Assembly: GCA_003054655.1 (NCBI GenBank)
Contig: QAYZ01000006.1
Span: 1 to 32,314 of the forward strand
DNA: 32,314 bases
Source: Spartobacteria bacterium LR76
GTDB taxonomy: Bacteria; Verrucomicrobiota; Verrucomicrobiia; Chthoniobacterales; Terrimicrobiaceae
Direction: 5' to 3'
The notes beneath the pieces are model-generated. The model was not told the origin of the DNA, did no database searches, and saw only the letters and a list, made by a program, of their open reading frames with translations. Every line of letters starts with the position of its first letter. Position 1 is the first letter of the stretch. This document shows positions 9,203-26,902 of the stretch, one piece after another. A program made the position numbers and the translations under genes.

Positions 9203-9904
9203 TCATCCGCCGTTGCGAGGGTTTTTCTCCAGCCTTTCCACGTCGATCTTGAGTTTCTGAAGGATTGAGGAGAGACCCTCGGGCAAACTGAGCATCGCGG
9301 CGGGAGCTGGTTTCTGAATAAACGTGCGCACCTCGGCAGCCTGTCTCCAGAGGACAGGCGCGCGGCTTTCCGCATCGATCCAAGCCTCCTTGTCGTCGTT
9401 TCGGAAAATGAGACAGTTTCGTCCCGCCTTTTTCTCCATGCCCTGATAGCACTCCTGGTTCAGCCATTCAAAGTCGGGAAACTTGCCCGCGCCGAGAGCC
9501 GCAAGCACCCGGGCCTGGACACGCGGATCCAAATTATCCCGATTGATGGACAGAATCATGGGCTGAGCTCCATCCGGGAGAGGTGCATAGATAAGCATCC
9601 CATTCGACCAGAATTCCCGGGTTGAGCCCGAGCCCTCAACCACGATGGCATGCCAGAGAGGTCGTGTGCGGATCAGCTCGATTTTCTTCGGGTCTCTTTG
9701 GTGCAGTGATGATTTTCCGACCGGCTGACCTTCCTTAGCTTCATCATCGCGATACTGGAATGCGATCTCCCAGGCCGCCGTATTCTCTATCGCCGCCACG
9801 AGAGGTCCGGGAGGAAGCGGTTCCGCTGCTCCAGAGAAATTTGCCGCAGCACCGCAAGCAAAAAGCAACCCGCACAGCCAGAGAGAAACAGCTCGAGCAC
9901 TCAT
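9203..9904 (-). CDS. Exported protein of unknown function, last gene of the cassette operon
   Basis: 233 residues with a signal peptide (LWLCGLLFACGAAANFSGAA, mature from about residue 27). I recognise no domain. Visible features are a mixed alpha/beta sequence, a REFWSNGMLIY segment, a WLNQECYQGMEKK segment and a helical end rich in Lys and Glu. Its ATG overlaps the TGA of cassette protein A by four bases (ATGA), so it is translationally coupled to it and should act with the pseudopilin-like assembly. Possible roles are a periplasmic accessory or substrate-binding subunit, but nothing in the sequence decides. Confidence 0.8.
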   Translation of the reverse strand: MSARAVSLWLCGLLFACGAAANFSGAAEPLPPGPLVAAIENTAAWEIAFQYRDDEAKEGQPVGKSSLHQRDPKKIELIRTRPLWHAIVVEGSGSTREFWSNGMLIYAPLPDGAQPMILSINRDNLDPRVQARVLAALGAGKFPDFEWLNQECYQGMEKKAGRNCLIFRNDDKEAWIDAESRAPVLWRQAAEVRTFIQKPAPAAMLSLPEGLSSILQKLKIDVERLEKNPRNGG

Positions 9905-12900
9905 TCGGACACGACCTCGATTTGGCGATCGATGACCTTTCCAGTCAGACGATCAATGGCAATATGAACCCACAAGCGACGCTCGCCCTCAACTGTAAAA
10001 GCATCAACCCCACTGGCATTCGGGCCATAGCGCCCGGTCTGAGCAATGAGGTCGATCATCAGGTTCCATGTGCCCACCTGCCCCGAGGAGGAGAGAGCAC
10101 GCACGGGGGCCTCCCGTAGTCGTTCCACGAGGTTTGCCGGAGCGTTCACGCCTGATTCCACCCCGAAGTCTTTGCTGAAGCCGTCAAATGGAGCCGGAGC
10201 GCCCGCAAAGCCATTGGAGGCATCGGGAGCAAATCGCCCGACCAGGTCCGCTAGATTCTCCAAGGGGCCTTTCCCTGGGGCGCTGGAGGTCGTACGCGCT
10301 ACCAAGGCCTCGGCAAGAGTCGCCGCGCTTTGCTGGCTCATGGCCGCCTCGCCCGCATATCCGAAAAGCCCGTCGCGTTCATCCCGGTAGGCGTCGGTCA
10401 GGAGTGCTTCCAGTACCTTGGGCTGGCGCGTATTCAAATCCACCTTGCCAGCTATGACAGCGTCCGCCCTTTGAGATTCCCCAATGCAAAACACATCGAG
10501 CAAACCGGAAAAACCCGACTCCGGCGTAAAGAAATCCAGATTTCTCCAAGGGGTATCGGAAAAGACGTACCCCAACTCTCCCACGCTCCGAAAGGGACGA
10601 TGCAACAGAATCGGACGATTGAATCGCTGGTTGCCGCCTCCCGGTGTCGCCATCGGAAGTCCAACGAGCGTGGTGGCATCGTGATTCACACTCGGCACGT
10701 AGGCACCTGTCGGCCGCCGCAATACACCATCCGCATCTCGGAAAAAATCCCAAAGGATGAAATTATCCGTGCTGGCAGCTCCATACCCGTTTGACGTGAT
10801 GCCCGGTGGAAAAATGGACATTCCAGGCCGAAGCGTGGGCATTGTGCCGTCTGCGCTCAGGGGTCCGAGCCCGATCTCACCATTGGTATTCCACCTGATC
10901 GTGCGAGGGTCGTAGGAGAAATGTCCACGAATGCGCTGGCCGGAGGATGACTCCTTATCCCACCTCATTTTCACAGGCATGGTGTCGTAGTTGGAACCAT
11001 CGGACGCACGAGGAATCGTAACGCCAAGCAACTGACTCAATCCCACCACGACCTGGCGATAGGGAACCCAATGGCTCCCGTCCTGGAACTCCAGCGAGAA
11101 AGTAAGCCCCTTGGTTGGCAAATCTCCCACTCCTGCATAGGCGGAGTTCAGTGTATAGCTGTTTGACCCTTGGTCAAAAACGAGGGGGAACCTCCCGAAA
11201 TACACGCCGATGTAAGAGTCACCCGTACCGAACTCTGTGACCCCAGTCTGCGGGTATCCTTTACCAATCAGGAGATTCCCGCTGTCCAGGGCCAGCCCGC
11301 TTCCGGCAGGGACTCCGGGATTCATCAGCGGAGTAGGCTGGCGATAGAGCGAAGGAACATTCGCAAAGTACATGGCCGTATTATTCGTCGCATTTTCAAC
11401 AGGAGTTTCGATGGTTCCCTGAGCTGGGTTTAGCGAAATATTGGCATTCCAATCCGAGAAATTCGGATAGGTGTAAAAAATTCCATTGGCCGCATCCATC
11501 CCGACCAACACCATCGGAGTCTGGGTTCCGAAATAGGCCGTGGCAGCAGGATGCAGAGTGGTTACGCAAAGCCGGAGATTTCGGGGTGAAAGAGCTGCCG
11601 GATACGCTGCCGAGGAAACCGGAGCGTCATGGGGATTCCAGATCACTGGCACGAGAAACACAGCAACATCTCCGTCGCTGGTCCGTGGGGCGATGGGCCG
11701 TGGCGTGCCGTCAGTCGAGGGCATCGGATTCGCCTGCTGATGGAGTACCGCCAGATTAAATAGTCCGGAAAAATAAGGCAGATCGACCGTTCCCCAAAAT
11801 GACCGCACCCGCGTACCGTCATCAAAGACGATATGAGTGGGAAAGTTATCAGGCCCAGCCTGATCGATCATATTAGCCCCGATTTGGATGATCTGGTTGT
11901 TTGTGTAAGTCGTCATCTTGAGATTGTCCGAGATAGCCAGATTCTCACCAGGGGTCGCGGGATTGGACGCGTGCCACCCCGGTCGACCTTTACCGATCGC
12001 TCCCACGTCGATCGCGGACTTCAGCAATTCAAAAAAGTCCGGTTCTCGCTCCTGGACGGCCACATCCTCCAAGTAGGCGACCGGATTGCTGCCCGCTCCA
12101 TGCCCATCGTAAACCCAGTATCCATCATAGGATCCCGATCCCGCCACCCAGCGCAACCCGAACATCTGCCGAATCTTTTGCGCTGTTCCCTCCGCAAGAA
12201 ACTTCGCGTCGAGCCCTTCATCAACATAGGCCTGAAGGACCGGGTCACCCTGAGAGAGCGCCGCGCTCGGTCCCTTGCAGGTCAGCCAGGCCAGGCGGTT
12301 CAGGTCGAAGCGCGTTTTCACCAGCGGCTCTCCTTTGACAAACTTGGTTCCATCCATCCGCACGGCCGATCCAGTCTGGGCAACTCGAATGGCTGCCAAG
12401 GCCGGATTGCTCTGGAGATCAAATCCAAACGCCGCGTTACCAAAGTCGTTTGGCCAGTCTGGCCCCTGGGGCCAACTCCAGAAATTAACCTTCGGCGCCT
12501 GGCTAGAATATTTGGGATAGGCCGCATTTACGGATTGGGCCCTGGCGAAGGTCGGTGTGTTAAGAGACCGGCTGAATGTTCCCAAGAACCTCAGGGCGTT
12601 CCGAACTGCTGCGTCATTGGCCGCATTCAGGTTGGTTTCAAAAAATCCCAACAACTGACCCCGGCCGATGAACTGGCGGTCGGTTTGGGAACCGGAGGCA
12701 TTCAGGCTCATGGCTTCGCGAAAGCCACTGTCCGAAGTTGTCGCAAGTTTCCAGAAACTCTCTGCGGGTCTTTCGCTCAAGGTGGCTGCATTCCGCCATC
12801 CAGCCAGCAAGTCGGTCTGCGATTGGGTCATGCCGATCGCCGTGAGATCCGCATAGGGTGAGCCGACCTTATAGCGGACAGGAGACGCTAGCGAACCGCT

Positions 12901-13629
12901 ACCAGCCGACGCTTTGGCCGAGGAAGGATAACCAGCCACATTGGCGTCGAGCAATCCTCCCTCATTGTAAATGGCATAAGCATACCGACCGACCACCACG
13001 TCATTCGCTGCAAAATCGGACGACCAAATCATTGCCGTTTTGTTCCAGGAAGAAGGATTCCCTCCCCCGCGATTGACCAGTATCCAGTCCGGAGCGGGAA
13101 AGGCGGAGGGAGGTGTTGGCTGGTAAAAGCTTGCGGCGGGCATCAAGAGGGGCTTGTTCCATCGCTCTCGGGAAATGAGGCGTCCATTGCCCGAGGATGC
13201 CAAGGTGGAGGCGCCTCCAAATGCGCGTGAAGCCGCCCCGGAAAATGCCCCCGCAGAGCCGCTGCTGACCTTGACCAGGTTTTCCAAGCCCGCAGTCCGC
13301 AGAGTGGCTCCGGGGACGACAAAATCGGGAACGGCACGCGCTGGAGAGGCGGGGAAATACAACGTGACACCACTCCCCGGATCTTGATAGCTCGTCGAAT
13401 GAGCCAGATCTTTGATTTCGCTCAGGAGATCCGCAGTTATTGCATTGACTGCGCCTTGAGAAAACAGCTCTGTTGCGGTCTGGCTCGCGCTGGATCGCGA
13501 AGTCTTTTGCCGACCGGAACTCAGGGTAAAGAAGGCTAAAATGACTCCTAGTAATAGCACAACAAAAGCCAGCACAACCACCAGCGCTGCACCACGAGGA
13601 CGGCGCACGAAGGACCTTTTAAGCATCAT
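9901..13629 (-). CDS. Verru_Chthon cassette protein A-like (TIGR02600-like)
   Basis: 1242 residues. The N-terminus is pilin-like: a basic RRPRGAA stretch, then the single hydrophobic helix ALVVVLAFVVLLLGVILAFF, then SSGRQKTSRSSASQTATELF, as in PilX/GspK-type minor pseudopilins. The remaining 1150 residues are an exported body rich in Ser, Ala, Asn and Trp. Very long single-helix proteins of this style, encoded beside three short prepilins, define the A member of the Verru_Chthon cassette (established family, function unknown). It may be the tip or main structural protein. It follows cassette C after ten bases and overlaps the 233-residue gene at its end. Confidence 0.85.
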   Translation of the reverse strand: MMLKRSFVRRPRGAALVVVLAFVVLLLGVILAFFTLSSGRQKTSRSSASQTATELFSQGAVNAITADLLSEIKDLAHSTSYQDPGSGVTLYFPASPARAVPDFVVPGATLRTAGLENLVKVSSGSAGAFSGAASRAFGGASTLASSGNGRLISRERWNKPLLMPAASFYQPTPPSAFPAPDWILVNRGGGNPSSWNKTAMIWSSDFAANDVVVGRYAYAIYNEGGLLDANVAGYPSSAKASAGSGSLASPVRYKVGSPYADLTAIGMTQSQTDLLAGWRNAATLSERPAESFWKLATTSDSGFREAMSLNASGSQTDRQFIGRGQLLGFFETNLNAANDAAVRNALRFLGTFSRSLNTPTFARAQSVNAAYPKYSSQAPKVNFWSWPQGPDWPNDFGNAAFGFDLQSNPALAAIRVAQTGSAVRMDGTKFVKGEPLVKTRFDLNRLAWLTCKGPSAALSQGDPVLQAYVDEGLDAKFLAEGTAQKIRQMFGLRWVAGSGSYDGYWVYDGHGAGSNPVAYLEDVAVQEREPDFFELLKSAIDVGAIGKGRPGWHASNPATPGENLAISDNLKMTTYTNNQIIQIGANMIDQAGPDNFPTHIVFDDGTRVRSFWGTVDLPYFSGLFNLAVLHQQANPMPSTDGTPRPIAPRTSDGDVAVFLVPVIWNPHDAPVSSAAYPAALSPRNLRLCVTTLHPAATAYFGTQTPMVLVGMDAANGIFYTYPNFSDWNANISLNPAQGTIETPVENATNNTAMYFANVPSLYRQPTPLMNPGVPAGSGLALDSGNLLIGKGYPQTGVTEFGTGDSYIGVYFGRFPLVFDQGSNSYTLNSAYAGVGDLPTKGLTFSLEFQDGSHWVPYRQVVVGLSQLLGVTIPRASDGSNYDTMPVKMRWDKESSSGQRIRGHFSYDPRTIRWNTNGEIGLGPLSADGTMPTLRPGMSIFPPGITSNGYGAASTDNFILWDFFRDADGVLRRPTGAYVPSVNHDATTLVGLPMATPGGGNQRFNRPILLHRPFRSVGELGYVFSDTPWRNLDFFTPESGFSGLLDVFCIGESQRADAVIAGKVDLNTRQPKVLEALLTDAYRDERDGLFGYAGEAAMSQQSAATLAEALVARTTSSAPGKGPLENLADLVGRFAPDASNGFAGAPAPFDGFSKDFGVESGVNAPANLVERLREAPVRALSSSGQVGTWNLMIDLIAQTGRYGPNASGVDAFTVEGERRLWVHIAIDRLTGKVIDRQIEVVSE

Positions 13630-13639
13630 AATCGTCTGG

Positions 13640-14584
13640 TTACAACTTTGCTCCCACGTCGAGAGGAAAGGTTCTTTGATAGATCCGGATGGAGGATCTC
13701 ACTCTAGCTGGGAGGCCATTCCCGCCGCCGCCTTGCAGGGCAAGCGTCCACAGCTTCGCAGGCATCACCTGACTGGTTCCCGGGGCCTGAATCTGGGGGG
13801 CTTTGACAAAGGCGGCGGCCACGCCACTGAGATCCCCCGCCACGTCATGGTTCGAAGAGTCCAGTACACCAAGTGTCACCGTAACCGCCGCCACGTCTCC
13901 CCAGCCGATTGCTCGCCAGATGGGAGCGCCGCTGCCGTCTATCCCGACCGCCATCAAACCTCTCCCATCTTCCCCGATCTTGCGACCCACAAGAGGAGCG
14001 GTATCGGTATTGGCTTGTCGCATCGGCAGGGCCGCGTACGTCCCGTCCTTAAGCAAGAAATACAGATCCAGCCGGAAAACCCCCTGGCAAAGCACATGAA
14101 AGTCGTTATCCGAAAGTGCAGGCGCCGTGAGCACCCCACCCACCGGCGCTCCAGAGGCGTCATCGTAGCTGAGCGTCTGTAGATCGCTCCACTTCTGAGT
14201 CTTTGCCAGCCTCCTCAGACAGTAGTCGTCATCAATCGCATAGCCGACGAGTGATAAGCCGCTGACCTGGCTGGCCGTGCCTCCGATGCCAGGTACAGCG
14301 CTGAAAAAATACACCGCATCACTGCCTTTGTGCGCTGCAGGCTGAAACAGGAAATCCACATCCCGACGTTTCACCATGTTCGCAATATCCAGGCCGATGC
14401 GATCAAAGGCGAAGCGGGCCTGTTCATCCGCCTCGAGACGCCAGTTCGCGTTATTGGTCAGAAGTTTGGCATTCGCGACCAATTGGGCAACCAGCGAGAC
14501 CAAGATCAAGAAGACGGCAAAGGCCACCAGCAGCTCGATCAAAGTAAAAGCGCCATCGCGCGAGCGCGGAGGAAAATTCGTCAT
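13640..14584 (-). CDS. Verru_Chthon cassette protein C-like prepilin (TIGR02599-like)
   Basis: About 314 residues from the ATG at 14584, which overlaps the stop of cassette B as ATGA; an open frame runs further upstream to 14644 but adds an unlikely extension. The leader is MTNFPPRSRDGA followed by FTLIELLVAFAVFL, with Phe13 and Glu17 (+5). The residue before the cleavage site is Ala rather than the usual Gly. The helix is followed by a long globular part containing RLEADEQARFAFDRIGLDIANM, a GspJ/PilW-like stretch. It should be a membrane-held minor pseudopilin processed by a prepilin peptidase encoded elsewhere. Confidence 0.85.
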   Translation of the reverse strand: MTNFPPRSRDGAFTLIELLVAFAVFLILVSLVAQLVANAKLLTNNANWRLEADEQARFAFDRIGLDIANMVKRRDVDFLFQPAAHKGSDAVYFFSAVPGIGGTASQVSGLSLVGYAIDDDYCLRRLAKTQKWSDLQTLSYDDASGAPVGGVLTAPALSDNDFHVLCQGVFRLDLYFLLKDGTYAALPMRQANTDTAPLVGRKIGEDGRGLMAVGIDGSGAPIWRAIGWGDVAAVTVTLGVLDSSNHDVAGDLSGVAAAFVKAPQIQAPGTSQVMPAKLWTLALQGGGGNGLPARVRSSIRIYQRTFPLDVGAKL

Positions 14585-15072
14585 GGCTCCAATTGTGTGA
14601 CCGCCTCGAATACACCCAGCGGAGGAGTGACCCCCGCTGGCCAACTAACCAAAAGATGAACCGGAATCCCCTCTCCTCCTGCGGGCGAAACTCCGAAGGT
14701 GACCACAGCCTGGAATTTGCTCGCCGCTGTCTTTCCCTCTTCCTGCCAGACTCCGCCCTCCGTGAAATAGAGGGCCGGAGCGGAAACTTTTGCCGAACCA
14801 TCGGCAACGACAATCCGGAACCGGGGACTTCTGGTCAAAGCGATGCCCTGATCATCCCGAGTGACCAGCAGGTCAGCCGCAATCATACGGGCAATACCCG
14901 ACGCCTCTGTCTGGCTCACGGCATCCTGACTGATTCTCAGGCCGGTCGAAAGCAGCCCAACCAGCACTGCCAGGCAAAATGCGCAGATCCCAAAGGCCAG
15001 GACAACCTCCACCAAAGAGAAGCCGGCATGGTCCGTGCGACGAGACATCCCAGTTGATGCTTTTCCCACCAC
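14581..15072 (-). CDS. Verru_Chthon cassette protein B-like prepilin (TIGR02598-like)
   Basis: 163 residues from GTG at 15072, which shares a base with the TAG of the preceding gene, or 155 from the ATG at 15048. The latter gives a normal short leader, MSRRTDHAG, before FSLVEVVLAFGICAF with Glu at +5. The small globular domain resembles GspI/PilV-type minor pseudopilins (DAVSQTEASGIARMIAADLL). It overlaps cassette C by four bases, so the order D-B-C-A is translationally coupled. Confidence 0.83.
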   Translation of the reverse strand: MVGKASTGMSRRTDHAGFSLVEVVLAFGICAFCLAVLVGLLSTGLRISQDAVSQTEASGIARMIAADLLVTRDDQGIALTRSPRFRIVVADGSAKVSAPALYFTEGGVWQEEGKTAASKFQAVVTFGVSPAGGEGIPVHLLVSWPAGVTPPLGVFEAVTQLEP

Positions 15073-16337
15073 TAGAGAGAAGGCCGCACCGCCCGCGCCA
15101 CCCCGCTGGGGCCGTCCACCTGAACACCAAAAGCATTCGCAGTTCCCCCTCGCGCCGGGACAAATCCCATCACCACGTACGAAGGAATCACCCTCTCGCT
15201 GACCGACAGGCTAGCCGCCCCCGCCGGGGAGAATCTCACCACGGAATCAAACTCAGAAAATCCCAGACCTGGGCGAATGGCGTCTGCCGGAAAACTGATC
15301 TTCGAATCGGTAATCCGGCAGCCATTCGCCAAGGCGTTCGAACCAGTCAGAACGGCCGAGGCACCATCGGTATCCAGAGAGACGGCTTCAAAGACCAGCA
15401 CTTTGCTAATCGGAAAAAGATCATCCTTGGTCAAGGCATCGGAAGTCCCGGCCAGACCGTTCCGGGATGCAACGACACCCACCCAGATGGCGGAATCGCC
15501 ATTCATATTTCCAACTCTCAAACCCACGTACACATAAGTATTATGTGTCATGGCGTAAGACCTGGCCTGACTGAAGAGATCGGGAATTTCCCCAGCCGCT
15601 CGCGCGACCGCGTTACCCCGGTTCAGACTTCCTACAGCAGGCATCGTCACGGCCATCAACATCCCCACCAACCCCATCACTACCAGCAGCTCAACCAGCG
15701 TCATTCCACGTAGGTTGATACGACCACGATCCAGAGAAATACGGGAGGTCAACTTTCGAATCTTCCGCCGTTGCCTCAACAAAACAGCCGTAGCCCCACC
15801 CAACAAAAGCAGTGAAATCGACGGCTCGGGGACCGGGCTAAAAGCGGCACGATCAAAGGTAAAAGCAAAATTATCGGTCCCTGAAATACTCGTTCCTATT
15901 CCCCAATCCGTTATCCTCGTAGGATCGACTCCGGACCAGTCAATCTCTTTACCGACTTCGGCCAGGGTCGCAAAATCAGCAGTATCGAAAAAGACGATCG
16001 CCATATTGGAATCGGCATCCATCAAAAAGAAGTTAAACGAAGTCGTCGCATTTGAAGCTACGCCCGCTACAGCAATGCCGGAGAGATAGATGTGGGTATA
16101 TCCTGACCAGTCCAGCCCCATTTCTCCCAACCAGACCCCAAACCCTCCGTCATTGAGAGGCTGGCCGTTCCCGAAATTTCCAATGGCGAAGGAAGACGCC
16201 CCACTATGTGCGACATTCGAGCTCCACCCAGGGCTGTACCAAGAGGGAGTAAAACTTGAAAAGTCACTGATGATCTGCGCCCGAAGCGGACAAATGCCGA
16301 CGACTACGAGCAGGGCAAAGATGTATCGTATTTTCAT
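15072..16337 (-). CDS. Fusion of a PEP-CTERM exported protein with Verru_Chthon cassette protein D-like prepilin (TIGR02596-like)
   Basis: 421 residues in one uninterrupted frame. Residues 1-20 are a signal peptide (cut before QIISDF). Residues 21-165 form a beta-rich exported domain that looks carbohydrate-binding-like (DWSGYTHIYLSG). Residues 170-190 are a complete PEP-CTERM tail: PEP, the hydrophobic SLLLLGGATAVLL, then RQRRK. Twenty residues on, a full prepilin signal begins: NLRG, then MTLVELLVVMGLVGML with Met212 and Glu216 (+5). It continues as a GspH-like minor pseudopilin to residue 421. An in-frame TTG at 15752, with GGAAG nine bases before it, could start a separate prepilin with a 16-residue leader. 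The 5' end overlaps the upstream gene by four bases. Each half is recognisable; the joining is unusual. Confidence 0.82.
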   Translation of the reverse strand: MKIRYIFALLVVVGICPLRAQIISDFSSFTPSWYSPGWSSNVAHSGASSFAIGNFGNGQPLNDGGFGVWLGEMGLDWSGYTHIYLSGIAVAGVASNATTSFNFFLMDADSNMAIVFFDTADFATLAEVGKEIDWSGVDPTRITDWGIGTSISGTDNFAFTFDRAAFSPVPEPSISLLLLGGATAVLLRQRRKIRKLTSRISLDRGRINLRGMTLVELLVVMGLVGMLMAVTMPAVGSLNRGNAVARAAGEIPDLFSQARSYAMTHNTYVYVGLRVGNMNGDSAIWVGVVASRNGLAGTSDALTKDDLFPISKVLVFEAVSLDTDGASAVLTGSNALANGCRITDSKISFPADAIRPGLGFSEFDSVVRFSPAGAASLSVSERVIPSYVVMGFVPARGGTANAFGVQVDGPSGVARAVRPSL

Positions 16338-19300
16338 GGAGAAGAATAAAAGAAGAATGGCGAGGCAGCCGCAGGGCGATTGATCATGACCGGTCGTCCA
16401 GGGCTAAAGAGCAGAGTCGACTCGGCCGATCCGCCGCCTTGGCGACGCCAGCTCAAGCCATCGTAATAATAAGTCATCCAAACTGTTCCCGTCCAAATCT
16501 GGACATGATCGCCGACGGTCGGGAAGCCCGGTTCCACGTTCCAGCCCGGCAAGCGTTGCAACGCAGCCTCGGAGAAAGTCGCGGTGCGCGGTGTGGTTGC
16601 GATAAAACTCTGTTTCCCTGCGGGAGCCGATACCCTCACCCCCGCTGCGCCTAGCCTTCCCACAAGCTGCATAGACTTCGAACTACCTTTCCGTACTATG
16701 ATGTACCCTTGATCTGGACGTATGACTATATTACCTGCATCGCCACCCCCGACCTGAACCCACCGTACACCATTGTGATAATAGCTCAACCACGCAGCCC
16801 CATTCCAAACGCGGAGCTGATCTGCTTCGCCGGGCGATCCTCCTTGAAGACTCCCGGCGGGAAACAGCGAGCTCAGCGTGTGCGCAGGAATCAGTTCAAA
16901 TGAATCCACTCCGGCCTGAATTCCCAAAGCAGTCAGGTTCAACCCTCCAGGAAGAAGGTTTACGCGACTGTCCGTGTTTGCATTCGAGGTCGATACCTCC
17001 AGGAGCGTTCCTTTAGCGGTTCCACTGGTGACTCTTAGTAACCAAGGCTCCTCCGACTGGGAAAGCGCACCGGGCAGCCAGTTCGCATTTGCGCAGGTGA
17101 TATAGGAAGAACCTACTCCCGCAATAAGGCCGGCGCGAACCCCATGAAAGACGCTTTTGGAGACTCGTTCGAGCGGAAAAGCCACCGCATTCTCCCGGCC
17201 TTGCCGGAGCTGCATTTCAAGTCTTCCTCCGGCTTCGGTGGTTACTGAACTTGTCCCATACGAGACACGCAGCCGCAGGTATCTTGCCGGAGAAGTCTTG
17301 TCTCCATCGGTGTAAACGATCTTTTCATCAACGAAGCCCGGGTTTGTAACCAGCGGGGTCCAGTTTTTCAGATCGACGCTTCCCTCTATTACATAGGTCA
17401 GGTCTGCACAGTGCCGGAAGAACGACATCGAAAGAGCTTTGGTCTCATTCATCTCAATCTCTGGAAATCCCTCCCTTCCAGATTCCGCACTGTTCGGATC
17501 CCCTCCGAATGCATATTCAAGCAAGTTACAAACTCCATCGTGATCCGGGTCTTGGTCGGGGGCGCCGGATCCCTCCTCAGGCAGCCCGCACTTGAGCGTC
17601 CACGTTTTGAATGTGGATTTTCCGGTCACCTTGATATTGCTGAAGCGGGTATCGTCACCGCCTCCAAAACAAACCCGACTGAAATTCGAGTACGAGTTTT
17701 CCCCTCGGACGGTCTCCATAAGACGCCCATCCATATAGACCTTGAGCTGTCCGGTGTCTTTTCTCCATGTCAAACGCAGCTTGGCGAAAGGAAGAGTATT
17801 TACCTTATGCCCGGAGTTCTGCGGCGAGCCGAGCAACGTGCCAAGTGAGTCAAATGTGAGGGAGGAAAGACCGGAACCGGTGAATTTCCGGATACTGACT
17901 ACGCCGCATCCATCTTGCAATGTACTCAACGACGAATCCCAGGCGGCGCCATACCCATTTGTTCCGTCGGAGTTGAACAGTCCGATCCAGAGTGCGCGGG
18001 CATAACCCGTGTGCATCACATCTGCAGTCAGATCAAAGTCTTCGCTCAGATTACACACGAGGCTGCGAGTAAAGACCGCATTATTCAGCCGGGTATATCG
18101 ATCACCGTTTTCTTCTCCGAAGGTTGGAGTCGTGGAGGATCCAGCGGGACTCCACTTTTCACTCATACGATTCGAACCCGTATTCCAGCCAGTGTAATCA
18201 AATGCGTCGTCAAGGATGGTGTATTCCGCCGGATGCGCTCCGACAAAGAGAGTGACAGAATCCTTCCACTCTCCCGAAGTCGCCGTGACAGTGACGTTCC
18301 CTGCCTTGCGGCCTGCGGTGAACACTCCGTCCGCATTAATCGTTCCATCGCCATCCATTGACCAGACCACCGATGGCTGCGTGGCTAATTTATTAAATTG
18401 AGAGTCGTAGCAGGTGGCCTTGAATGCGATCGTCTCTCCAAAGGCGACCCTCGGTTTCTCGGAGGTGCCCGGGCTGATCCTTAGATATCCCGACATGGAG
18501 TACACTCCCTGGCTGGCGTTCTCGTAGGTCCCGGTAGAGGAAACCTCACGCTTCACTGCACGCACCATATAGAAGGAATCCGCGCTTCCTGCCGAGTCAA
18601 AATAGCTCATTACAGTTCCAGGAAGTTTGACGATGCGGGTGTAGGGCCCAGTCTCCGCTTCAGCTCGATAGACACGATACTCCGAGACGGCCCCATCCGG
18701 CGAGGGCGACCACGAAATCTGCTGTCCATTACAGAGAACGACTCCAGGCGGGGCAACCACATGCAACCTCAGAGTGGGATCCCCCATGAGAGCCATGTAT
18801 GTTCTGGTCGGCCACTCGCCGGTATCGTATATGGTCGACGTCGCATTCTGGGAGAGCAAATGGCTATATCCCGTCGTCATTCCCATTCCCATTGGATGAA
18901 ACAGCCAATAACGAAATCCAGACCAAACGCAGGTAAGCCCATAGGAGGTCGCGAGCGGCGCTCGCAACAAGACATTATCTTTCTGAAACTCGACGAAATA
19001 GCTTCCAAACAACATCGTGAACAACGCCCGGTGATTTAAATTTACGAAATCCTGAGTCGATACCACCCCGTCAGCGCTAGTGTAAGATCCCCCGCCAGAT
19101 CCGTAGGCAAACGTATAGTCATTGGTAGGTAGAACGGTGTTCCAATCGCCAGCGCCAATACTGCCTGCCAGCGTCCCCCAGCTTCGCCATGCGGCTGAAG
19201 GAAAAGTTGACGACCATGTGTCATCAACCAGCGCACGATTTGCAGCGACTAGCGTTTTGAAGCGAAATGCGTGGGTTTTCGCCAGATACTGACGGTGCAA

Positions 19301-20455
19301 TTCGATAGAATTCTTCGGAAACATCGTCATTCCCGCCAGATCGGCTCTACCCACTTGCAATGCCAAGGAGCCAGGAGCGTTGTTTTGATCGAACACCCCA
19401 TCGCCAGCAATGAACCCGGATGTGGCCGCTGTGTCCGTCCATCTTTCCGGCAGTGCCATGTCTGCATAGTACATATCGGCTGGAATGGCTCTGGGCGCGT
19501 GCCCATCTGGGGCATACCAACCGCTCATGGGAACCGCAACTCGTCCAAATATATAAACGGCTTTGAGTCGGGTCGGCGCCTCGTCGTATACCGAGTGAAT
19601 CACTTTTTTAACCTCAGTCGGCTCCTGGTCAGCGGTGATATCGCGCCTGACAACCTCCCAGCCGTCGCCCACTAAATCCATCACACATTGCGACAGTTCC
19701 CCAGATAGCGCGGCAGAATACGTCTGATCCACCAACAAAAGAACTCTGCCGCGATCTTCTGGGAGGGGAACATCGACTCCCGAGTAGATATACCCGTTCG
19801 AATTTGAAACCGAGGTATCTATCTTGGCGATTCGGTACTCGTAACATACTCCCGCCTGCACGGTATTATCTGTCCATGTATTTGCTCCTTTGGGAAGGGA
19901 TGCTACGGCTGAACCCCAGCCGGGTTGCTCCAGGGTTCTCCGATAGATTACCCAGCCCTGAAGCGTCTTAGTCGGCCACGTGGGCCAGTTCAGGGTGATG
20001 CTTGGAGGTGGTCCTGCTGATGCTGTCGCCTTCAATACGACGACCCGCTCGTAAGCTGGGGTGGACAGCATGAACTCCCCATCGCTCGTGTCCGTAGATG
20101 AGGGGTTGGAAAGACTTGTGATCCGAATGTAATTCCCGTCTGATGGGGTAACCCAGTTCCCCCAGGTGAAATTATAGCTCCCGGTATTGGGAGCGCTTGC
20201 CGCGAGCAAGCCAACTCCCCCGTTTGCCGGGGTGATCCACTCGATTTTCACGTTACCACCGTCGTCTGAGGTCCACTTGAAAGTGGATGTGGAGTCCCGG
20301 AAATAGACCTCTCCTCCCGAAGGCGAGGTGACAGTTATCGTAGCGTTCGCCAGTCCGCCGAGAAGAAAGAATGCAAAGACAAATCCAGCCAGCATTCGGA
20401 GTCCGGAGCACCAACGAGTGAACGATGAAAAGCGCATATCCAATATCAATTCCAT
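16334..20455 (-). CDS. Large exported multidomain protein with C25-like, jelly-roll and TIGR02597-like domains
   Basis: 1373 residues. Rough order: signal peptide (1-39); Kre9/Knh1-type beta domain from ITVTSPSGGEVYF (40-130); fibronectin type III-like (135-215); gingipain (peptidase C25)-like region (235-570), with VYIFGRVAVP, PADMYYADM and MGDPTLRLH; a second FN3-like repeat (575-650); bacterial Ig-like domain (655-740); concanavalin-like jelly roll (745-945); a calcium-type DQDPDHDG repeat followed by NLLEYAFGGDP (967-987); a YVIEGSVDLKNW repeat (1021-1032); and a TIGR02597-like C-terminus (1075-1373), with LTALGIQAGVDSFELIPA and two W/Y-rich repeats. In the C25-like part the segment where the catalytic Cys is expected reads LFGSYFVEF, so peptidase activity is doubtful. 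Its start overlaps the preceding stop by ten bases. A cell-surface scaffold or adhesin is likely (inference). Confidence 0.8.
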   Translation of the reverse strand: MELILDMRFSSFTRWCSGLRMLAGFVFAFFLLGGLANATITVTSPSGGEVYFRDSTSTFKWTSDDGGNVKIEWITPANGGVGLLAASAPNTGSYNFTWGNWVTPSDGNYIRITSLSNPSSTDTSDGEFMLSTPAYERVVVLKATASAGPPPSITLNWPTWPTKTLQGWVIYRRTLEQPGWGSAVASLPKGANTWTDNTVQAGVCYEYRIAKIDTSVSNSNGYIYSGVDVPLPEDRGRVLLLVDQTYSAALSGELSQCVMDLVGDGWEVVRRDITADQEPTEVKKVIHSVYDEAPTRLKAVYIFGRVAVPMSGWYAPDGHAPRAIPADMYYADMALPERWTDTAATSGFIAGDGVFDQNNAPGSLALQVGRADLAGMTMFPKNSIELHRQYLAKTHAFRFKTLVAANRALVDDTWSSTFPSAAWRSWGTLAGSIGAGDWNTVLPTNDYTFAYGSGGGSYTSADGVVSTQDFVNLNHRALFTMLFGSYFVEFQKDNVLLRAPLATSYGLTCVWSGFRYWLFHPMGMGMTTGYSHLLSQNATSTIYDTGEWPTRTYMALMGDPTLRLHVVAPPGVVLCNGQQISWSPSPDGAVSEYRVYRAEAETGPYTRIVKLPGTVMSYFDSAGSADSFYMVRAVKREVSSTGTYENASQGVYSMSGYLRISPGTSEKPRVAFGETIAFKATCYDSQFNKLATQPSVVWSMDGDGTINADGVFTAGRKAGNVTVTATSGEWKDSVTLFVGAHPAEYTILDDAFDYTGWNTGSNRMSEKWSPAGSSTTPTFGEENGDRYTRLNNAVFTRSLVCNLSEDFDLTADVMHTGYARALWIGLFNSDGTNGYGAAWDSSLSTLQDGCGVVSIRKFTGSGLSSLTFDSLGTLLGSPQNSGHKVNTLPFAKLRLTWRKDTGQLKVYMDGRLMETVRGENSYSNFSRVCFGGGDDTRFSNIKVTGKSTFKTWTLKCGLPEEGSGAPDQDPDHDGVCNLLEYAFGGDPNSAESGREGFPEIEMNETKALSMSFFRHCADLTYVIEGSVDLKNWTPLVTNPGFVDEKIVYTDGDKTSPARYLRLRVSYGTSSVTTEAGGRLEMQLRQGRENAVAFPLERVSKSVFHGVRAGLIAGVGSSYITCANANWLPGALSQSEEPWLLRVTSGTAKGTLLEVSTSNANTDSRVNLLPGGLNLTALGIQAGVDSFELIPAHTLSSLFPAGSLQGGSPGEADQLRVWNGAAWLSYYHNGVRWVQVGGGDAGNIVIRPDQGYIIVRKGSSKSMQLVGRLGAAGVRVSAPAGKQSFIATTPRTATFSEAALQRLPGWNVEPGFPTVGDHVQIWTGTVWMTYYYDGLSWRRQGGGSAESTLLFSPGRPVMINRPAAASPFFFYSSP

Positions 20456-23400
20456 GAGTTGTTGTAACTTTCCGCCGTGTAAGTCGTCGGCGACGCATTG
20501 ACAAAAACCGACTTTCCTTCCGGCACGCAGGTAACGGTGTTCCTCTCAAAAAGAATGCTCTGCCCAACGGAACCCGGCTCGATCAGGACTCCAAAATCAC
20601 CGGTTTTCCGTATGATATTCCGAAGAAATGAAACGGCATACTGCGGAGCGCCTCCCTGAATCTGCAAACCTTTGTAGGTCGCATCTAAAATGCGATTATC
20701 GGCGATAGTGACATTATTGATTGCAGCATGAATTGCCTCGCTGCCGAATAACCCGTTGTTCGAATTGCCAGCGAGTATCCAAAGGGCAGAACCCCATTGG
20801 CCGTTCAGCGGTGTTCCTCGTGCAAAGCCCCCACTTCGGAGGACGAGGTTTCGCCGGACGATCGAGTTTTCCAGCGCGAACATCCCAAAGTCTTCGGAAA
20901 CCGGTTGATTGATCCCTAATCCCGGGAAAAGGGCATTATCCACCAGGTAATTGTACTCCACCAAATGTCCCTTTCCTCCGCCGAGGTCGCCATTCATTCC
21001 CCACCAGATCGCAGACACCGTATTTCGCCGAAGCGTACAGTTTTCCGTCCGCGTGTCGCCTGTGTGGGTGCGATGGGACAGGATTGCGGTTCCATCATCG
21101 CCACAACCGCGCACATGATTATTTTCGATCAAGACCCCGTTCGCGCTATGAGCGATCGTGATTCCGTCCGCATAGGTAAATCGCACTCTGCAATTCCGAA
21201 CCTGACCTGTTCCCTGGACCCAGAATCCCGTCAGAGTATGCGAGATCCAGACATTGTTAACTTTCCATCCGGTCTTTCCCTTTCCCCCATCAAACGCATT
21301 GGATCCGATGCTGCGTCCGGTGCGCGCCAGACTCTCGACAAAGAGGTCCGACACCTCGACGTCGCTATCCAGCTTGAAGCCCATGGTCCCGCTCCAATCG
21401 TCCGGGGGATCGACCTGACTCCCGAGAATTTCCGTAAACCAAGGTCCCGCTCCGCGCACCTTGACGCCTGCGGGCACGGTGAAAGGCTGTTGCTGATAAT
21501 AGCGACCTGAGGGAATCCAAACGACCTTTTTGGGCTCGTACGCCGATGCAGCATTGAGACATTGCTGGATTGCCGCAGTGTCATCTGCGCTATCCGATCC
21601 ACTGGCCCCGAAATCAGCAACAGAAAGGAATGGCTCCGCCGGGGGCGCAATTGGAGTCGCGAATTCTAAATCAACCAAATCGACGAGATAATATTCCGCG
21701 GTGTCGCCTTGCGACTTTTTCAAGCGAAGCTTCGTCCCAGTCGGCAGCTCCTCTCCAAGCCGGACACGAACCTCGTCCCAAAAAACGCAAGGCTTCCTGT
21801 CCGGTGAAGAATCATTCGAAAGACCTTCATAATCGTTCGGGGTGCTGGCATTAGCGTACAGCCAGGCATGCGTGGGACTGATGACAACCGGACCTGCTTG
21901 AAGACTTTGCTCTACACCATTAACGACCTTCTGGAGGGTTAATGTGTAGGTCACGGAACTTCCCGAGGGAGCGTCAGGAACGCACACGCGGAAGACCGCA
22001 GTGTTTGCAGGTGAGGAAACAGGGATATCAATATAATCCCCCACCGTTCCGAGATGCGCATACGATCTGCCAGACGCTTCCCTCGCTGGTGAACTTACCG
22101 TCGGATCTTCCAGCCTTCGGACGAGTCCAGGATGTGCTGTATCCTCTGCCTCACAGGTTTCAAAAGGCAACTCGGCTCCGATGGGGATTCTGACTCTTAC
22201 ATTGTCAACGACATCTCCTTCGCTACCGCCGACAGCAACTCGCTGAAACGAACTGAAATCGGAGTCGATGTACGAATGGACCAGGCTTTCATTCATGTAA
22301 ACGTCGATCCTCCGGGAGTCCACACTCCAGCACACTCGAAAATGGGCGGGTTCCGAATCTGTGATCAGTTGATTTCCCGCACTCACGCCCCCGAGGAGTG
22401 CCGTCCCATAGAGATCGAAGGAGACAGGCGTCTGTTGATCGATTTTGTGTATGCGAACAATTCCCTTTCCTCCCCACATCGGGCCGCTTGGAGTCGTGCC
22501 CGAGGAGTCCCAGGACACGGCGTACCCGCTGTTACTGTCTTTTGAAAGCAGCCCCACCCATGCAAATTTCTGAAACCCCGCATGCCTGACATCAAAGGCA
22601 ATCTCCGCGTCATAAGTAAGAGGTTCCGACAACTGTGTCTCCGCGACACCATTATGCAAAAGAAGCCTCCCCCTCGATAGGGTGGGCATAGTCCCACTAT
22701 GGTGAGTCCATATCGCACTCAAGAGGTCTGTATTTTTGTAGGAGAAAGAATCCTGAAAAACAGTTCCGGGAAGCGGAACAGGTTGGACGCTCCTCACAAC
22801 AAGATTGTCAACCAGTCCTCCATTCGCCGAAGATCCATCTCTTCCGCCTCCGATATAGATCCTCGAAAACTCATCGAACGAAAAATCTTCCTTCTCCCCG
22901 ACGAAAGCACCATCCATAGACACCCGCAGTTTTCCTTCCGTGCGGTTCCAACTCAGCGTAATCCGTGCAGGCGGCGCCTGGGAGAATGAGTGATATGAGC
23001 CCATTTCCGATGGATTTGGCAGCGGACTCCCGCAGTAATAGGTCGTAAGAGATGCCGCCGAGGGAACATCGATCTTGCTCACTCTCAGAAAACCCTTCCC
23101 ACCCCAATTGCTAGCGCTAGCAGAATCCCACGAGACAGAGTAGCCCTGCGTACCAGAGGCATTCAAAATCGCCACCCAGATCAATGACTGGCTTCCAGTG
23201 TGAAGAGCATCAAACGTCAGCTCAAAATCGTCAGAGACAACTTCGGTCAATTCACGCCAAACAACACCATCCCGGAGCCGCAACGCCCCGCCCTCTACAA
23301 CAGGCCCAGAACCGCTGCTGACCTGCCATCCCGAATTCAGAGTTCCAGAGTCAAAATCATCCTGCAAAGCAGGAACCAAACGCCTCGGTGTCGCGTGGAC

Positions 23401-23457
23401 AACACTCAAAGACACCAACATCAATAAGGATAAAACCCTTCGTTTCATCACTTTCAT
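20446..23457 (-). CDS. Exported GH87-like beta-helix glycosidase with two jelly-roll domains and a CBM
   Basis: About 1003 residues from the ATG at 23457; a GTG at 23475 would add six and numbering here uses that longer form. Signal peptide to about residue 28. Two homologous concanavalin-like domains follow (36-230 and 238-430), then a CBM6/35-like module starting at ETCEAEDTAHPG (438-607). From DFGASGSDSADDTAAIQ (621) to the end is a pectate-lyase-type right-handed beta-helix. Its core, NNVWISHTLTGFWV, then YADGI (Asp770), then GCGDDG (Asp793, Asp794), has the sequence style and the 23-residue spacing of the catalytic Asp trio that I recall for GH87 alpha-1,3-glucanase/mycodextranase (D1045, D1068, D1069 in Agl-FH1). 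Likely an alpha-glucanase; another glycan is possible. First gene of the seven-gene operon. Confidence 0.8.
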   Translation of the reverse strand: MKVMKRRVLSLLMLVSLSVVHATPRRLVPALQDDFDSGTLNSGWQVSSGSGPVVEGGALRLRDGVVWRELTEVVSDDFELTFDALHTGSQSLIWVAILNASGTQGYSVSWDSASASNWGGKGFLRVSKIDVPSAASLTTYYCGSPLPNPSEMGSYHSFSQAPPARITLSWNRTEGKLRVSMDGAFVGEKEDFSFDEFSRIYIGGGRDGSSANGGLVDNLVVRSVQPVPLPGTVFQDSFSYKNTDLLSAIWTHHSGTMPTLSRGRLLLHNGVAETQLSEPLTYDAEIAFDVRHAGFQKFAWVGLLSKDSNSGYAVSWDSSGTTPSGPMWGGKGIVRIHKIDQQTPVSFDLYGTALLGGVSAGNQLITDSEPAHFRVCWSVDSRRIDVYMNESLVHSYIDSDFSSFQRVAVGGSEGDVVDNVRVRIPIGAELPFETCEAEDTAHPGLVRRLEDPTVSSPAREASGRSYAHLGTVGDYIDIPVSSPANTAVFRVCVPDAPSGSSVTYTLTLQKVVNGVEQSLQAGPVVISPTHAWLYANASTPNDYEGLSNDSSPDRKPCVFWDEVRVRLGEELPTGTKLRLKKSQGDTAEYYLVDLVDLEFATPIAPPAEPFLSVADFGASGSDSADDTAAIQQCLNAASAYEPKKVVWIPSGRYYQQQPFTVPAGVKVRGAGPWFTEILGSQVDPPDDWSGTMGFKLDSDVEVSDLFVESLARTGRSIGSNAFDGGKGKTGWKVNNVWISHTLTGFWVQGTGQVRNCRVRFTYADGITIAHSANGVLIENNHVRGCGDDGTAILSHRTHTGDTRTENCTLRRNTVSAIWWGMNGDLGGGKGHLVEYNYLVDNALFPGLGINQPVSEDFGMFALENSIVRRNLVLRSGGFARGTPLNGQWGSALWILAGNSNNGLFGSEAIHAAINNVTIADNRILDATYKGLQIQGGAPQYAVSFLRNIIRKTGDFGVLIEPGSVGQSILFERNTVTCVPEGKSVFVNASPTTYTAESYNNSWN

Positions 23458-23636
23458 TTTCTTAGGGGGATACACCTGGAAGGCGTTAAACTAATTGGCT
23501 AGCGACATCTACACCTCACTCATCAGGACGCGAAAACACACTTGTCTTCGCGTCAATCTTCCACCGCTATCAACGGCAGCAGAATCCGCAGACTTCACAC
23601 TTAACCAGACTCACGTTAGCTTTTTTGAACCGCGAA

Positions 23637-23750: not shown

Positions 23751-24473
23751 TTACTCGCCAGACAATTCCACGCTTCGATATATCGCCCCACCCATGCCGG
23801 AAAGAACGACTTCGGAAAACTCTTCAGCTTGATCAAGAAAGGCTGTGCCGATCAATGAATCTTCCATCCACAGATCCAAGCGACCTTCCGTACGATTCCA
23901 AGTCAGCCGGAATTTCGCAAATGGCTCGGTGATGGCCTTCTGTCCGCTCACTCCCGCTTTTGCGGGAAGCCCCTGCGGCGTCGACATTCTTTCCGCCCCC
24001 TCACCGTTTAGGATCAGCATGTAGGGTGGTTTGTCCTCCGTCGTCCTATTTATCGAGTATAGGCATGCAAATCCGCTGGAATCCCAGTTTTCGGGATGTG
24101 AGGCATCCCAAACAACCACGACTCCCTTTTGGAAATCGCTCGTAAACAATCCAAACCACTGGCCTTGCGCGTATTTCGTATGCAGTAGTTCGACCTGGAG
24201 CGAAAACTCCTGAACAACCGGTCTTTCAAGGTTGAAACTTACGACGGTCTCACTAAGAAAAAGTCCCTTGCCCGACTCAAAAGTCGGCTCGGGGCCAGAT
24301 AGACGGCTCCAAGAATCTTGAAAAGTCGTCTCCGCTTTTTGATCTGCGAAATTGGTGCTTAAAAGGGTGCCTGCCAACGCTTCATTCATTTGGAGGGAAA
24401 GCACCCCCGCCAATGCCGGAATTAAAAACAAACGACGCGTCAAGCCCAGGGGTATAAGAGTTTCGAGGTTCAT
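23751..24473 (-). CDS. Exported concanavalin-like jelly-roll protein
   Basis: 240 residues. Signal peptide about 1-35 (RRLFLIPALAGVLSLQMNEALAG). The rest is one copy of the domain shared with the two large proteins of the neighbouring operon: LLHTKYAQGQWFGLFTSD, then VVWDASHPENW, then FRLTWNRTEGRLDLWMEDSL near the end. The WNRTEG motif is identical to one in the GH87-like protein. There is no membrane anchor or PEP-CTERM. It is probably a secreted glycan-binding or lyase-like protein; a bare jelly roll cannot be assigned to a CAZy family from sequence alone. It starts 24 bases after the beta-helix gene, so it is the last gene of the 26902-23751 operon. Confidence 0.75.
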   Translation of the reverse strand: MNLETLIPLGLTRRLFLIPALAGVLSLQMNEALAGTLLSTNFADQKAETTFQDSWSRLSGPEPTFESGKGLFLSETVVSFNLERPVVQEFSLQVELLHTKYAQGQWFGLFTSDFQKGVVVVWDASHPENWDSSGFACLYSINRTTEDKPPYMLILNGEGAERMSTPQGLPAKAGVSGQKAITEPFAKFRLTWNRTEGRLDLWMEDSLIGTAFLDQAEEFSEVVLSGMGGAIYRSVELSGE

Positions 24474-26008: not shown

Positions 26009-26902
26009 TTATCGCACGTCAGAACCGCGACGAAGACCGACATATCGACGGCGCAGAATGAATCCAAGCGCGGCCGTCCCCAACAGAAGCGAGGTGCCCG
26101 GCTCAGGAACAGTCTCCACAGTCAGATTGTTGAAGTTCGCAAAGTCCATTCCCGCGATCACAACAGAAGAAAATGACCCAAATGTTGTATCGCTTCCCGT
26201 AAAGATGGGAACTCCATTTGCGGCGAGCTCTATAGCTCCATTGTCACCTAACGAGAAGGTGAAGGTCGTCATTGGCGTTTCGCTGGTGGGGCCTGCCGGG
26301 ACAAAGTTAACCAGCCCCGGAGTCACATACAATGGAGGGAAGTATCCGCTATTCCCCGTCACGCCTGAAGCCGCCGCAAGATCGGAAGCATAAGCATTAT
26401 AATTCCACCAGGTCTGCCCCTGATCCACGGGGATGGAAACCTTCCTGATGAGGAGATAATTTGTATCAATGGCAAAGGTATATCCGTTTCGACCACTGGC
26501 GTCGAACACGCCGACCGTCTGGCGCGCCTGATTGTTCGACGAGATTAAATCTATCGTCAATTTGAAGTTGCTGATGGTCTCCAGCAACGAACGCTGAATG
26601 ACTCCGTTTCCCAAGGACGCAAACGGAGCACCAGCTATCGCCGTGCTTGATGAAACCATGAAAGGAGAGTTTTCTGACAGGGTTGCCCAGTTCGCTCGTA
26701 GAGCAGCATCTGTGGAATAGTCAAAAGCATCCTGCAGAACCACGGTAGCTCGACTCATGCTCGGCAGGCAAACAGCGGCTGCTGCGCATAAACCAAAGAC
26801 GATCTGCCTGCCACGACCAGAGAACGGAAGAGTCCACTTCTGAGAAACGGCCTGAATGACGGGGGAGTTGCGATGTGTGTTCATATCAGAGGAGGCACCC
26901 AC
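26009..26902 (-). CDS. PEP-CTERM protein with a diverged jelly-roll domain
   Basis: 297 residues from a GTG at 26902 preceded by GAGGA; an ATG at 26884 is an alternative. The N-terminus is unusually long: about 30 polar residues, containing PVIQAVSQKW, precede the signal core IVFGLCAAAAVCLPSM, which is cut after SRA. Residues 53-260 contain VVLQDAFDYS and GVFDASGRNGYTF, a diverged version of the jelly-roll domain of its neighbours. The tail (from about 265) is a PEP-CTERM signal: VPEPG, hydrophobic SLLLGTAALGFIL, RRR, plus a short basic extension. Such tails are cut by exosortase and retained at or released from the surface; no exosortase gene is in this window. First gene of its operon, with operator and promoter at 26934-26963. 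Confidence 0.85.
   Translation of the reverse strand: MGASSDMNTHRNSPVIQAVSQKWTLPFSGRGRQIVFGLCAAAAVCLPSMSRATVVLQDAFDYSTDAALRANWATLSENSPFMVSSSTAIAGAPFASLGNGVIQRSLLETISNFKLTIDLISSNNQARQTVGVFDASGRNGYTFAIDTNYLLIRKVSIPVDQGQTWWNYNAYASDLAAASGVTGNSGYFPPLYVTPGLVNFVPAGPTSETPMTTFTFSLGDNGAIELAANGVPIFTGSDTTFGSFSSVVIAGMDFANFNNLTVETVPEPGTSLLLGTAALGFILRRRYVGLRRGSDVR

Follow-up and report, generated by a model that had tools for sequence, protein, structure and literature searches.

The 32,314-nt contig QAYZ01000006.1 of Spartobacteria bacterium LR76, analysed here over its full length and called the window, is the entire contig C15 of the LR76 assembly. Seven genes on its minus strand encode a GH87-type glycanase, a 1373-residue protein and a five-gene cassette, D-B-C-A-S, of prepilin-like and exported proteins (Table 1). 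We find that A, a giant protein of such cassettes that has had no name, is very probably a GspK with a long inserted region, a conclusion that draws on a predicted structural model and its alignments, on gene order and on signal evidence. This identity is the firm new result; beyond that point we infer, and tip exchange is the best-supported mechanism. In the reading towards which we lean, and which we hold to be reasonably probable, the cassette would provide an alternative minor-pseudopilin tip on a shared filament of the type II secretion system (T2SS) type and would be tied to particular glycan loci. The fold of A is well supported; a motor and a function are proposed.

A reading made from the sequence alone had placed the seven genes from 23475 down to 9203, with overlaps of 10, 4, 1 and 4 bases, a gap of 10 and a final overlap of 4, and all of these junctions were confirmed. 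It had also described the glycanase as GH87-like, D, B and C as prepilin-like, A as a giant with a single helix and the last gene as encoding a small exported protein, and these points were likewise borne out. Gene C most likely starts at the ATG at 14584 and not at the TTG at 14644, which opens the longest open reading frame (ORF).

Table 1. Window features, in order of transcription for the seven-gene run, followed by neighbouring genes
Feature	Position	Strand
Glycanase, GH87-type (alpha-1,3-glucanase-like), exported, 1009 aa, GTG start, two N-terminal repeated modules	20446..23475	-
1373-aa protein with a weak C25-peptidase-like region, one glycanase-like module and a TIGR02597-like tail	16334..20455	-
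D, PEP-CTERM-like part (residues 1-192) and prepilin from about residue 208, GspG/GspH-like	15072..16337	-
B, GspI/PilV-like prepilin, 163 aa	14581..15072	-
C, GspJ-like prepilin, 314 aa counted from the ATG at 14584	13640..14584	-
A, giant GspK-like minor pseudopilin (predicted), 1242 aa, no Glu at +5, long insertion	9901..13629	-
S, exported 233-aa protein encoded fifth in cassettes of this family, beta sheet predicted to be LolA/RseB-like	9203..9904	-
Stand-alone protein of 240 aa that carries the shared module, upstream of the run by 275 bases, no Pfam match	23751..24473	-
Right-handed beta-helix protein, GH28-related, C-terminal TrkA_C domain	24498..25988	-
Regulator of the LacI family, close to the operon's 3' end, PF00356 33.5 bits (cut-off 27)	6678..7877	+
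Alpha/beta hydrolase, BD-FAE type, convergent with S, PF20434 147.8 bits	8145..9137	+

Protein A and the cassette prepilins

The AF2 model of A, built for residues 43-1242 with 29 relatives, had a pTM of 0.85 and a pLDDT of 75. When VIA-align re-aligned the model with 963 chains, the first four places all went to GspK/XcpX proteins: 3ci0_K (Z 11.4, 237 of 280 residues, rmsd 3.5 Å), 5vtm_X (Z 10.8), 9a1f_T (10.4) and 6utu_C (10.3). The fifth-best chain, at Z 5.5, was a C2 domain that covered model residues 577-869.

GspK is the T2SS pseudopilin that lacks a glutamate at position +5, and its absence is seen in the E. coli K-12 GspK sequence. In alignment columns, Glu occupies this position in every D (71/71) and B (53/53), in 52/54 C proteins and in none of the A proteins (0/17), which have one N-terminal membrane helix. 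Nine A proteins of LR76 share 39-59% identity in four parts, namely the first helix, 206-290, 985-1050 and the C-terminal strands; the figure is 32-40% at 76-205, 291-600 and 1051-1140, and falls to 22-23%, with many gaps, at 601-960. A thus comprises a conserved pilin body and an insertion whose second half varies.

Sequence models lend weak support to the likeness. PF03934 (T2SSK) scored above its cut-off in five A-type genes (24.2-28.2 bits), and a Pfam search of 17 A proteins gave a single weak T2SSK match (E 0.037). The GspK model NF037980, with a cut-off of 130, found one full-length short match in each of four genomes (64.7-85.2 bits, the lowest being the core GspK of LR76 itself), together with 13, 17, 15 and 9 giant ORFs of 922-1595 aa. 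These giants cover the model only from position 1 to 60-88, at 21-34 bits, and all fail the cut-off; the window A was not among the matches listed. A sequence profile of A compared with PDB chains gave nothing relevant.

Several results weigh against the assignment. Foldseek alone returned nothing significant for A (best E 0.16), and the GspK match comes from the re-alignment of Foldseek's list by VIA-align. Profile comparison of A with GspK was weak (32-45% for the E. coli protein, 12% for the core GspK). Three ORFs of 821-882 aa outside cassettes also pass PF03934, at 24.4 bits, and we therefore rejected this model as proof of a GspK. In addition, the insertion is only partly variable, because its part at 431-600 (40% identity) is as conserved as the first helix.

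The three smaller proteins carry prepilin signals. In D, the N_methyl model matched residues 210-231 (22.7 bits, cut-off 21.2), and comparison of the D family by hhalign gave 97.3 for E. coli GspG and 86.1 for GspH. B matched TIGR02598 (32.5 bits) and XpsI (30.3 bits) in the signal region; in its family, at E up to 0.1, TIGR02598 matched 30/30 members, PilV 27 and GspI 11, and hhalign gave 93.5 for the core GspI and 90.0 for the core GspH. C matched N_methyl at 27.3 bits, and its family compared best with E. coli GspJ (96.0; GspG 88.3). Against PDB chains, the profile of B found none, and those of C and D found mainly pilin N-terminal helices. The core GspJ was not identified, and an ORF first taken for it looks spurious. 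Two of these results do not favour an H-I-J-K assignment: D is nearer GspG than GspH, and the likeness of D, B and C to GspH, GspI and GspJ comes mainly from the common N-terminal helix.

Upstream of its prepilin part, D contains an internal PEP-CTERM match (TIGR02595, 21.8 bits, cut-off 16, residues 169-192) and reads as an in-frame PEP-CTERM-prepilin fusion. None of the 70 other cassette D proteins compared carries such a fusion, their longest N-terminal extension being 114 residues. We withdrew an initial view of the fusion as unique when two more were found in the LR76 genome. One, of 932 aa, is encoded next to a LacI gene (L036:1944-4742); the other, of 553 aa (L158:9-1670), came from a blind control stretch. 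In each, a prepilin signal directly follows the PEP-CTERM end. Such fusions make up 3/68 distinct prepilin-type ORFs in about 1.03 Mb of LR76 sequence; a fourth match to the pattern was the GspD gene and was discarded as false. The order of the membrane segments would put the end of the PEP-CTERM helix in the cytoplasm, on the side from which a prepilin signal has to begin, and would suit a double protein that the prepilin peptidase cuts in two. For D, translation from an internal start at codon 196 is the plainer alternative.

The fifth protein, S, follows A directly in 48/87 loci. Its AF2 model (pLDDT 85.7) matched RseB 2v43 (E 1.9e-5, TM 0.38) and LolA (E 6.6e-5) in Foldseek. With VIA it aligned with RseB 2v43_C at Z 9.6 over 141 residues and, alike, with an ependymin-type protein at 10.3. 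As a guess only, S might bind lipid or a hydrophobic segment.

The sequence-only reading had called the cassette Verru_Chthon, after models TIGR02596-02600. These models were run on D, B, C and A; they are the top NCBIfam hits for all four proteins, and none reaches its cut-off: D scored 34.4 (cut-off 70), B 32.5 (51.4), C 23.9 (256.5) and A 23.2 (332.3). The matches are confined to the N-terminal prepilin signal (for A, residues 13-80 against TIGR02600). Four related A proteins, including that of Chthoniobacter flavus Ellin428 (L091), gave the same picture with TIGR02600, at 25.2-32.5 bits. Genuine members occur elsewhere in LR76. At L041, on contig C9, A scored 958 bits over positions 1-1296, D 93.2 and B 75.9, with C just under its cut-off at 246.4; at L150, on C11, A scored 881 bits, with B (49.5) and C (224.7) each slightly under. 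We therefore rejected the name: the observation behind it stood, and the name and the mechanism attached to it were corrected. The window cassette belongs to a parallel family for which no matching library model was found. The two families resemble each other in combining three prepilins with a giant single-helix protein in the same genome, and TIGR02598 is the best model for the window-type B family; they differ in gene order, D-B-C-A-S in the window and B-C-D-A at L041. The L150 cassette (L150:754-6639, G000 C11) lies near tandem PilB-like ATPases, a hint at the motor of that sister family. In the open literature searched, the term Verru_Chthon, its spelling variants and three of the TIGR numbers were not found.

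Cassette family, copy number and motor genes

A scan of our genome collection found 173 relatives, of which 79 distinct loci were kept, from Spartobacteria, Chthoniobacterales, Verrucomicrobium, Methylacidiphilales, other Verrucomicrobiota and one Proteobacteria. Genes in other genomes were called with a codon table derived from the window, and some were missed. Among 87 loci with a full-length A, 30 have the order D-B-C-A, one (L037 of LR76) has B-C-D-A, 27 are incomplete or variant, and 29 have none of B, C and D upstream, through a contig end, a missed call or true absence. The D-B-C-A order is thus kept in 30/31 loci in which all four genes were called, and it is the order of gspH-I-J-K in E. 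coli K-12. The closest relative of the window cassette, at L043/L052, has an A that is 45% identical (11 of the 26 LR76 candidates were scored). At L119 and L088, cassettes or cassette fragments form a tandem pair.

A profile built from the last 258 residues of A, for which all 22 LR76 candidates were scored, matched 10 genes in LR76. Once two rows of one gene had been merged, the counts for two congeners were 12 and 11, and each of 16 other relatives gave zero to three matches. In a sample of the phylum it was found in 4/115 genomes, one of which has 11 genes and a fragment. Together with 8 genes from the NF037980 search and one at L150, the 10 window-type A genes bring the giant-K genes of LR76 to 19, and at least one prepilin gene was called alongside 17 of them.

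The machinery that could drive such proteins is far less numerous. LR76 has one full-length match to the T2SS-type secretin model TIGR02517 (312.7 bits, cut-off 351); the three congeners, LR76 included, have one each, at about 312 bits, and one prepilin peptidase gene was found per genome in four genomes including LR76. The secretin lies in a T2SS stretch (C9:28251-37463) that also holds a GspK of 304 aa, an ATPase of the GspE type and genes whose pseudopilin signals were read by eye; the core stretch on C9 and the window cassette on C15 are not encoded together. Numbers of giant-K, secretin, GspK and peptidase genes are similar in two congeners. The contrast of 19 giant-K genes with one full-length secretin, one short GspK and one peptidase fits tips that share a machine.

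In this scheme, the one prepilin peptidase found in LR76 would process D, B, C and A, and these would assemble into a complex like that of H-I-J-K at a filament's end. A shared machine would drive the filament, and the likeliest candidate is the single T2SS encoded elsewhere in the genome. The GspK body of A would anchor the tip, and its displayed insertion would select a glycan or a cargo. S, in the periplasm, could be a chaperone or sensor for tip or cargo. Co-production of the tip, the glucanase and the 1373-residue protein from one operon would re-tip the machine when the cell meets that glycan. What we propose is that the proteins assemble as a tip, that they use the T2SS, that S plays the part given to it and that the linked glycanase or its substrate is exported or recognised. 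A bolder version, in which a single T2SS is served by up to 19 giant-GspK tips that are switched by glycan locus and choose the polysaccharide or enzyme, some of them fused to PEP-CTERM parts and cut by the peptidase, is more tentative, and we would not count on it.

A number of observations speak against the shared-tip scheme. The L037 order departs from that of gspH-I-J-K, and the A gene at L038 and the giant at L173, the exceptions among the 19, have no called prepilin gene. In the phylum sample this A occurs in 4/115 genomes and a TIGR02517 match in 86/115. Nine relatives gave a strong match to A, and six of these also a full-length GspD match; absence from the other three is uncertain, because these are drafts of 160, 180 and 410 contigs. 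Lastly, since LR76 has other PilB-/PilT-like ATPases and four further secretin matches, the specific machine is not proven.

The same inventory, in which PF00437 matches eight ATPases, including the one of the T2SS stretch, and four extra secretin matches occur, would suit a cassette that tips a type IV pilus-like filament. A would then be a glycan-binding adhesin on a surface pilus that keeps the cell on polysaccharide, and the glycanase would work beside it and not be its cargo. One cassette that has a genuine Verru_Chthon A adjoins a tandem PilB-like pair, the pilus-tip minor pilin of Streptococcus sanguinis is reported to bear a lectin module (PMC9934059), D is nearest to major pilins by sequence, and 7o5y_D (S. 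sanguinis PilA) stands in row 10 for A at Z 5.0. We nevertheless consider a pilus rather unlikely, as the four GspK structures lead by a wide gap and the PEP-CTERM and enzyme genes beside cassettes suggest cargo. The two-part GspK body is, moreover, a feature of the T2SS.

Gene neighbourhoods and the rest of the window

The shared-tip scheme ties cassettes to glycan loci, which bears on the genes around them. Across three genomes, 12/32 cassettes have a LacI-family gene no farther than 10 kb away (4.25 expected, P 0.0004), and 15/32 have one within 15 kb (5.9 expected, P 0.0001). In this test the LR76 contig sizes were known, two G002 sizes and a rounded G132 size were estimated, 44/45 G002 matches were used and G001 was left out. 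Immediately upstream of the cassette, a PEP-CTERM gene occurs in 9/56 loci, compared with 6/204 controls (P 0.001) and 25/647 other genes (P 0.0007). The count is 9/52 once four second copies of the same locus are removed, and 8 when two near-identical Verrucomicrobium strains are counted once (P 0.0018 against 25/647). Of 97 loci, 41 were dropped from this survey for want of a full A, a called D or an upstream gene in view.

The Pfam tallies that follow cover the best 25 of 52, 37, 36 and 26 families, with CAZyme counts read by hand. Among the matches listed for 51 upstream genes, PATR autotransporter-type repeats were commonest (7), followed by LacI-type sugar-binding domains (4), with SASA, GH43, GH29, GH3 and AXE1 also present. 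The association of cassettes with CAZymes that had been suggested was moderate for the flanks of nine LR76 cassettes, with up to 9/41 against 2/48 controls (P 0.012), and weak for the gene immediately upstream, with 6/51 against 2/48 (P 0.15). The figure of 9 supposes that each match comes from a separate protein, and that of 6 that the two SASA proteins are the ones with the two GH2_N matches; the control is 48 of 77 control proteins. GH43 genes are few in four genomes, and in LR76 they are clustered on one contig. Two results run counter to a glycan tie: the immediate-upstream CAZyme excess is insignificant in these matches, and LacI genes within 5 kb show no significant excess (4/32, 2.4 expected, P 0.21).

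These nulls would suit a passive neighbourhood, in which cassettes multiply within islands of secreted-protein genes and have no functional tie to the enzymes. Such an origin would also explain why neighbours vary from cassette to cassette, why the LacI excess appears at 10-15 kb only and why the upstream neighbour is on the other strand in 19/56 loci. We give it the least credence of the readings considered: the LacI excess at 10 kb and the PEP-CTERM excess, the short overlaps throughout the window operon and the maintenance of cassette order in other genera all argue for a tie. Varying partners are equally what tips matched to different glycans would predict. Proteins of 323-338 aa, with C-termini that look alike by eye, lie immediately upstream of three cassettes in different genomes (L034:8295-9287, L054:6743-7711 and L076:4905-5918), and they are a possible recurring cargo.

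The link to GH87 is not conserved. At L043/L052, the closest cassette, a GH3 gene lies 168 bases upstream and a GH38 gene 75 bases downstream, and no GH87 was found in 19 non-window loci among the best two hits per gene. The window glycanase itself matches both GH87 catalytic-region models, PF22815 (83.1 bits) and PF22816 (72.3 bits), each above its cut-off of 27, and on this sequence evidence is of the GH87 type. The binding modules ascribed to it are two self-similar N-terminal modules (38% identity over 117 residues); neither has a Pfam match, and a binding role is putative. The 1373-residue protein matched PF01364 (C25 peptidase) at 19.6 bits, below the cut-off of 23. Its TIGR02597-like tail was found at residues 1132-1262 with 30.6 bits, short of the cut-off of 50. 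The C25-like catalytic positions of this protein look changed by eye, and it may be an inactive scaffold.

The sequence-only reading suggested a dedicated pseudopilus-like machine, here taken as self-contained, that perhaps loads the glycanase or the 1373-residue protein onto the cell surface. The packing of the run, in which all seven genes overlap or almost touch, fits this view, as does the module that the 1373-residue protein and the glycanase's neighbours have in common. Yet none of the scanned window genes was recognised as encoding a secretin, an ATPase or a prepilin peptidase, the model of A is that of a GspK-type tip subunit, and the GH87 link is absent from the closest cassette. Elsewhere, of 37 upstream genes that run in the same direction as the cassette, only 7 are 30 bases or less away from it. 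We judge a self-contained machine very improbable.

The common module is seen in the 240-aa protein at 23751-24473, which matches the 1373-residue protein by blastp with 29.6% identity over 186 residues. We considered and rejected it as a general cargo tag: among the best two blastp hits per gene in the 19 non-window loci, the only match was one of 47 residues at a PEP-CTERM end in L037. The glycanase is preceded on the same strand, from 26902 to 23751, by genes for a PEP-CTERM protein, a beta-helix protein and this stand-alone module protein, and a 275-base gap parts the three from the seven-gene run. The beta-helix protein matched PF13229 (70.3 bits), PF12708 (58.2), PF00295 (29.5) and PF02080 (TrkA_C, 37.0). 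TrkA_C domains are usually cytoplasmic; here one stands at the C-terminus of a beta-helix protein. The PEP-CTERM protein (26009-26902) and a tannase-family protein (28504-30231) have in common a 57-residue stretch with 42% identity, N-terminal by eye, as though an export leader had been copied.

Near the other end of the operon, the LacI-family gene inferred earlier was confirmed by its PF00356 match. The carbohydrate-type operators said to lie nearby were not: a LacI-type palindrome with up to two mismatches occurs 10 times against 13.75 expected. Promoter-like and terminator-like sites in the window are likewise at shuffle level, and we rejected both operators and promoters as support. A stand-alone PulG-like pseudopilin gene (5779-6426, N_methyl 27.3 bits) runs divergently from the LacI gene. 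Two transposase-like ORFs with an SDNGPEF motif (1935-2864 and 31471-32214), recognised by eye, lie close to the two contig ends, and are perhaps the reason that the 32-kb contig stops there.

Relation to known systems

Should the shared-tip scheme be right, the principle of interchangeable tips that is seen in the Tad pilus would extend to a T2SS-like filament in polysaccharide-degrading Verrucomicrobiota, and the old question of how one T2SS handles many unlike cargoes becomes testable.

The nearest known system is the T2SS set GspH-I-J-K (XcpU-V-W-X; 3CI0, 5VTM, 6UTU), whose gene order the cassette shares. Both have class III signals, with Glu at +5 in three cassette prepilins and none in A, and the model of A has a predicted GspK fold. 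Unlike GspK, A is about four times longer, carries a long insertion and stays under the cut-off of GspK sequence models; unlike the T2SS set, the cassette occurs in many copies per genome away from the core stretch and has the extra gene S. The four minor pseudopilins of the T2SS form a tip that is said to bind substrates (PMC6211770).

Multiple tips on one filament machine have a parallel in the Kil (Tad) pilus of Myxococcus, which is reported to have four interchangeable KilLMN minor-pilin tips with variable domains (PMC12075869). The likeness, by architecture only, lies in several paralogous minor-pilin sets with variable end domains on one filament machine. There the pilins are of the TadE/F/G type, the sets are four and the role is predation, whereas LR76 has a GspK-type giant, 19 giant-K genes and glycan loci.

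The type 4 pilus tip of Streptococcus sanguinis is reported to be a modular minor pilin that bears a lectin module, and it shows that a binding domain can be placed at a filament tip (PMC9934059). It differs from the cassette in that the pilus is of type 4, the species is host-associated and the added domains are different.

Within the same phylum, Verruconatronum alginivorum has a PulG-like pseudopilin with 67 homologues in its genome, and a pseudopilin is reported to be over-expressed on alginate (PMC13274419). Multiplied pseudopilin genes are common to both organisms, and the stand-alone pseudopilin of the window (5779-6426) resembles those of V. alginivorum. As described there, those proteins are PulG-like, whereas the window has an H-I-J-K-like cassette with a giant K.

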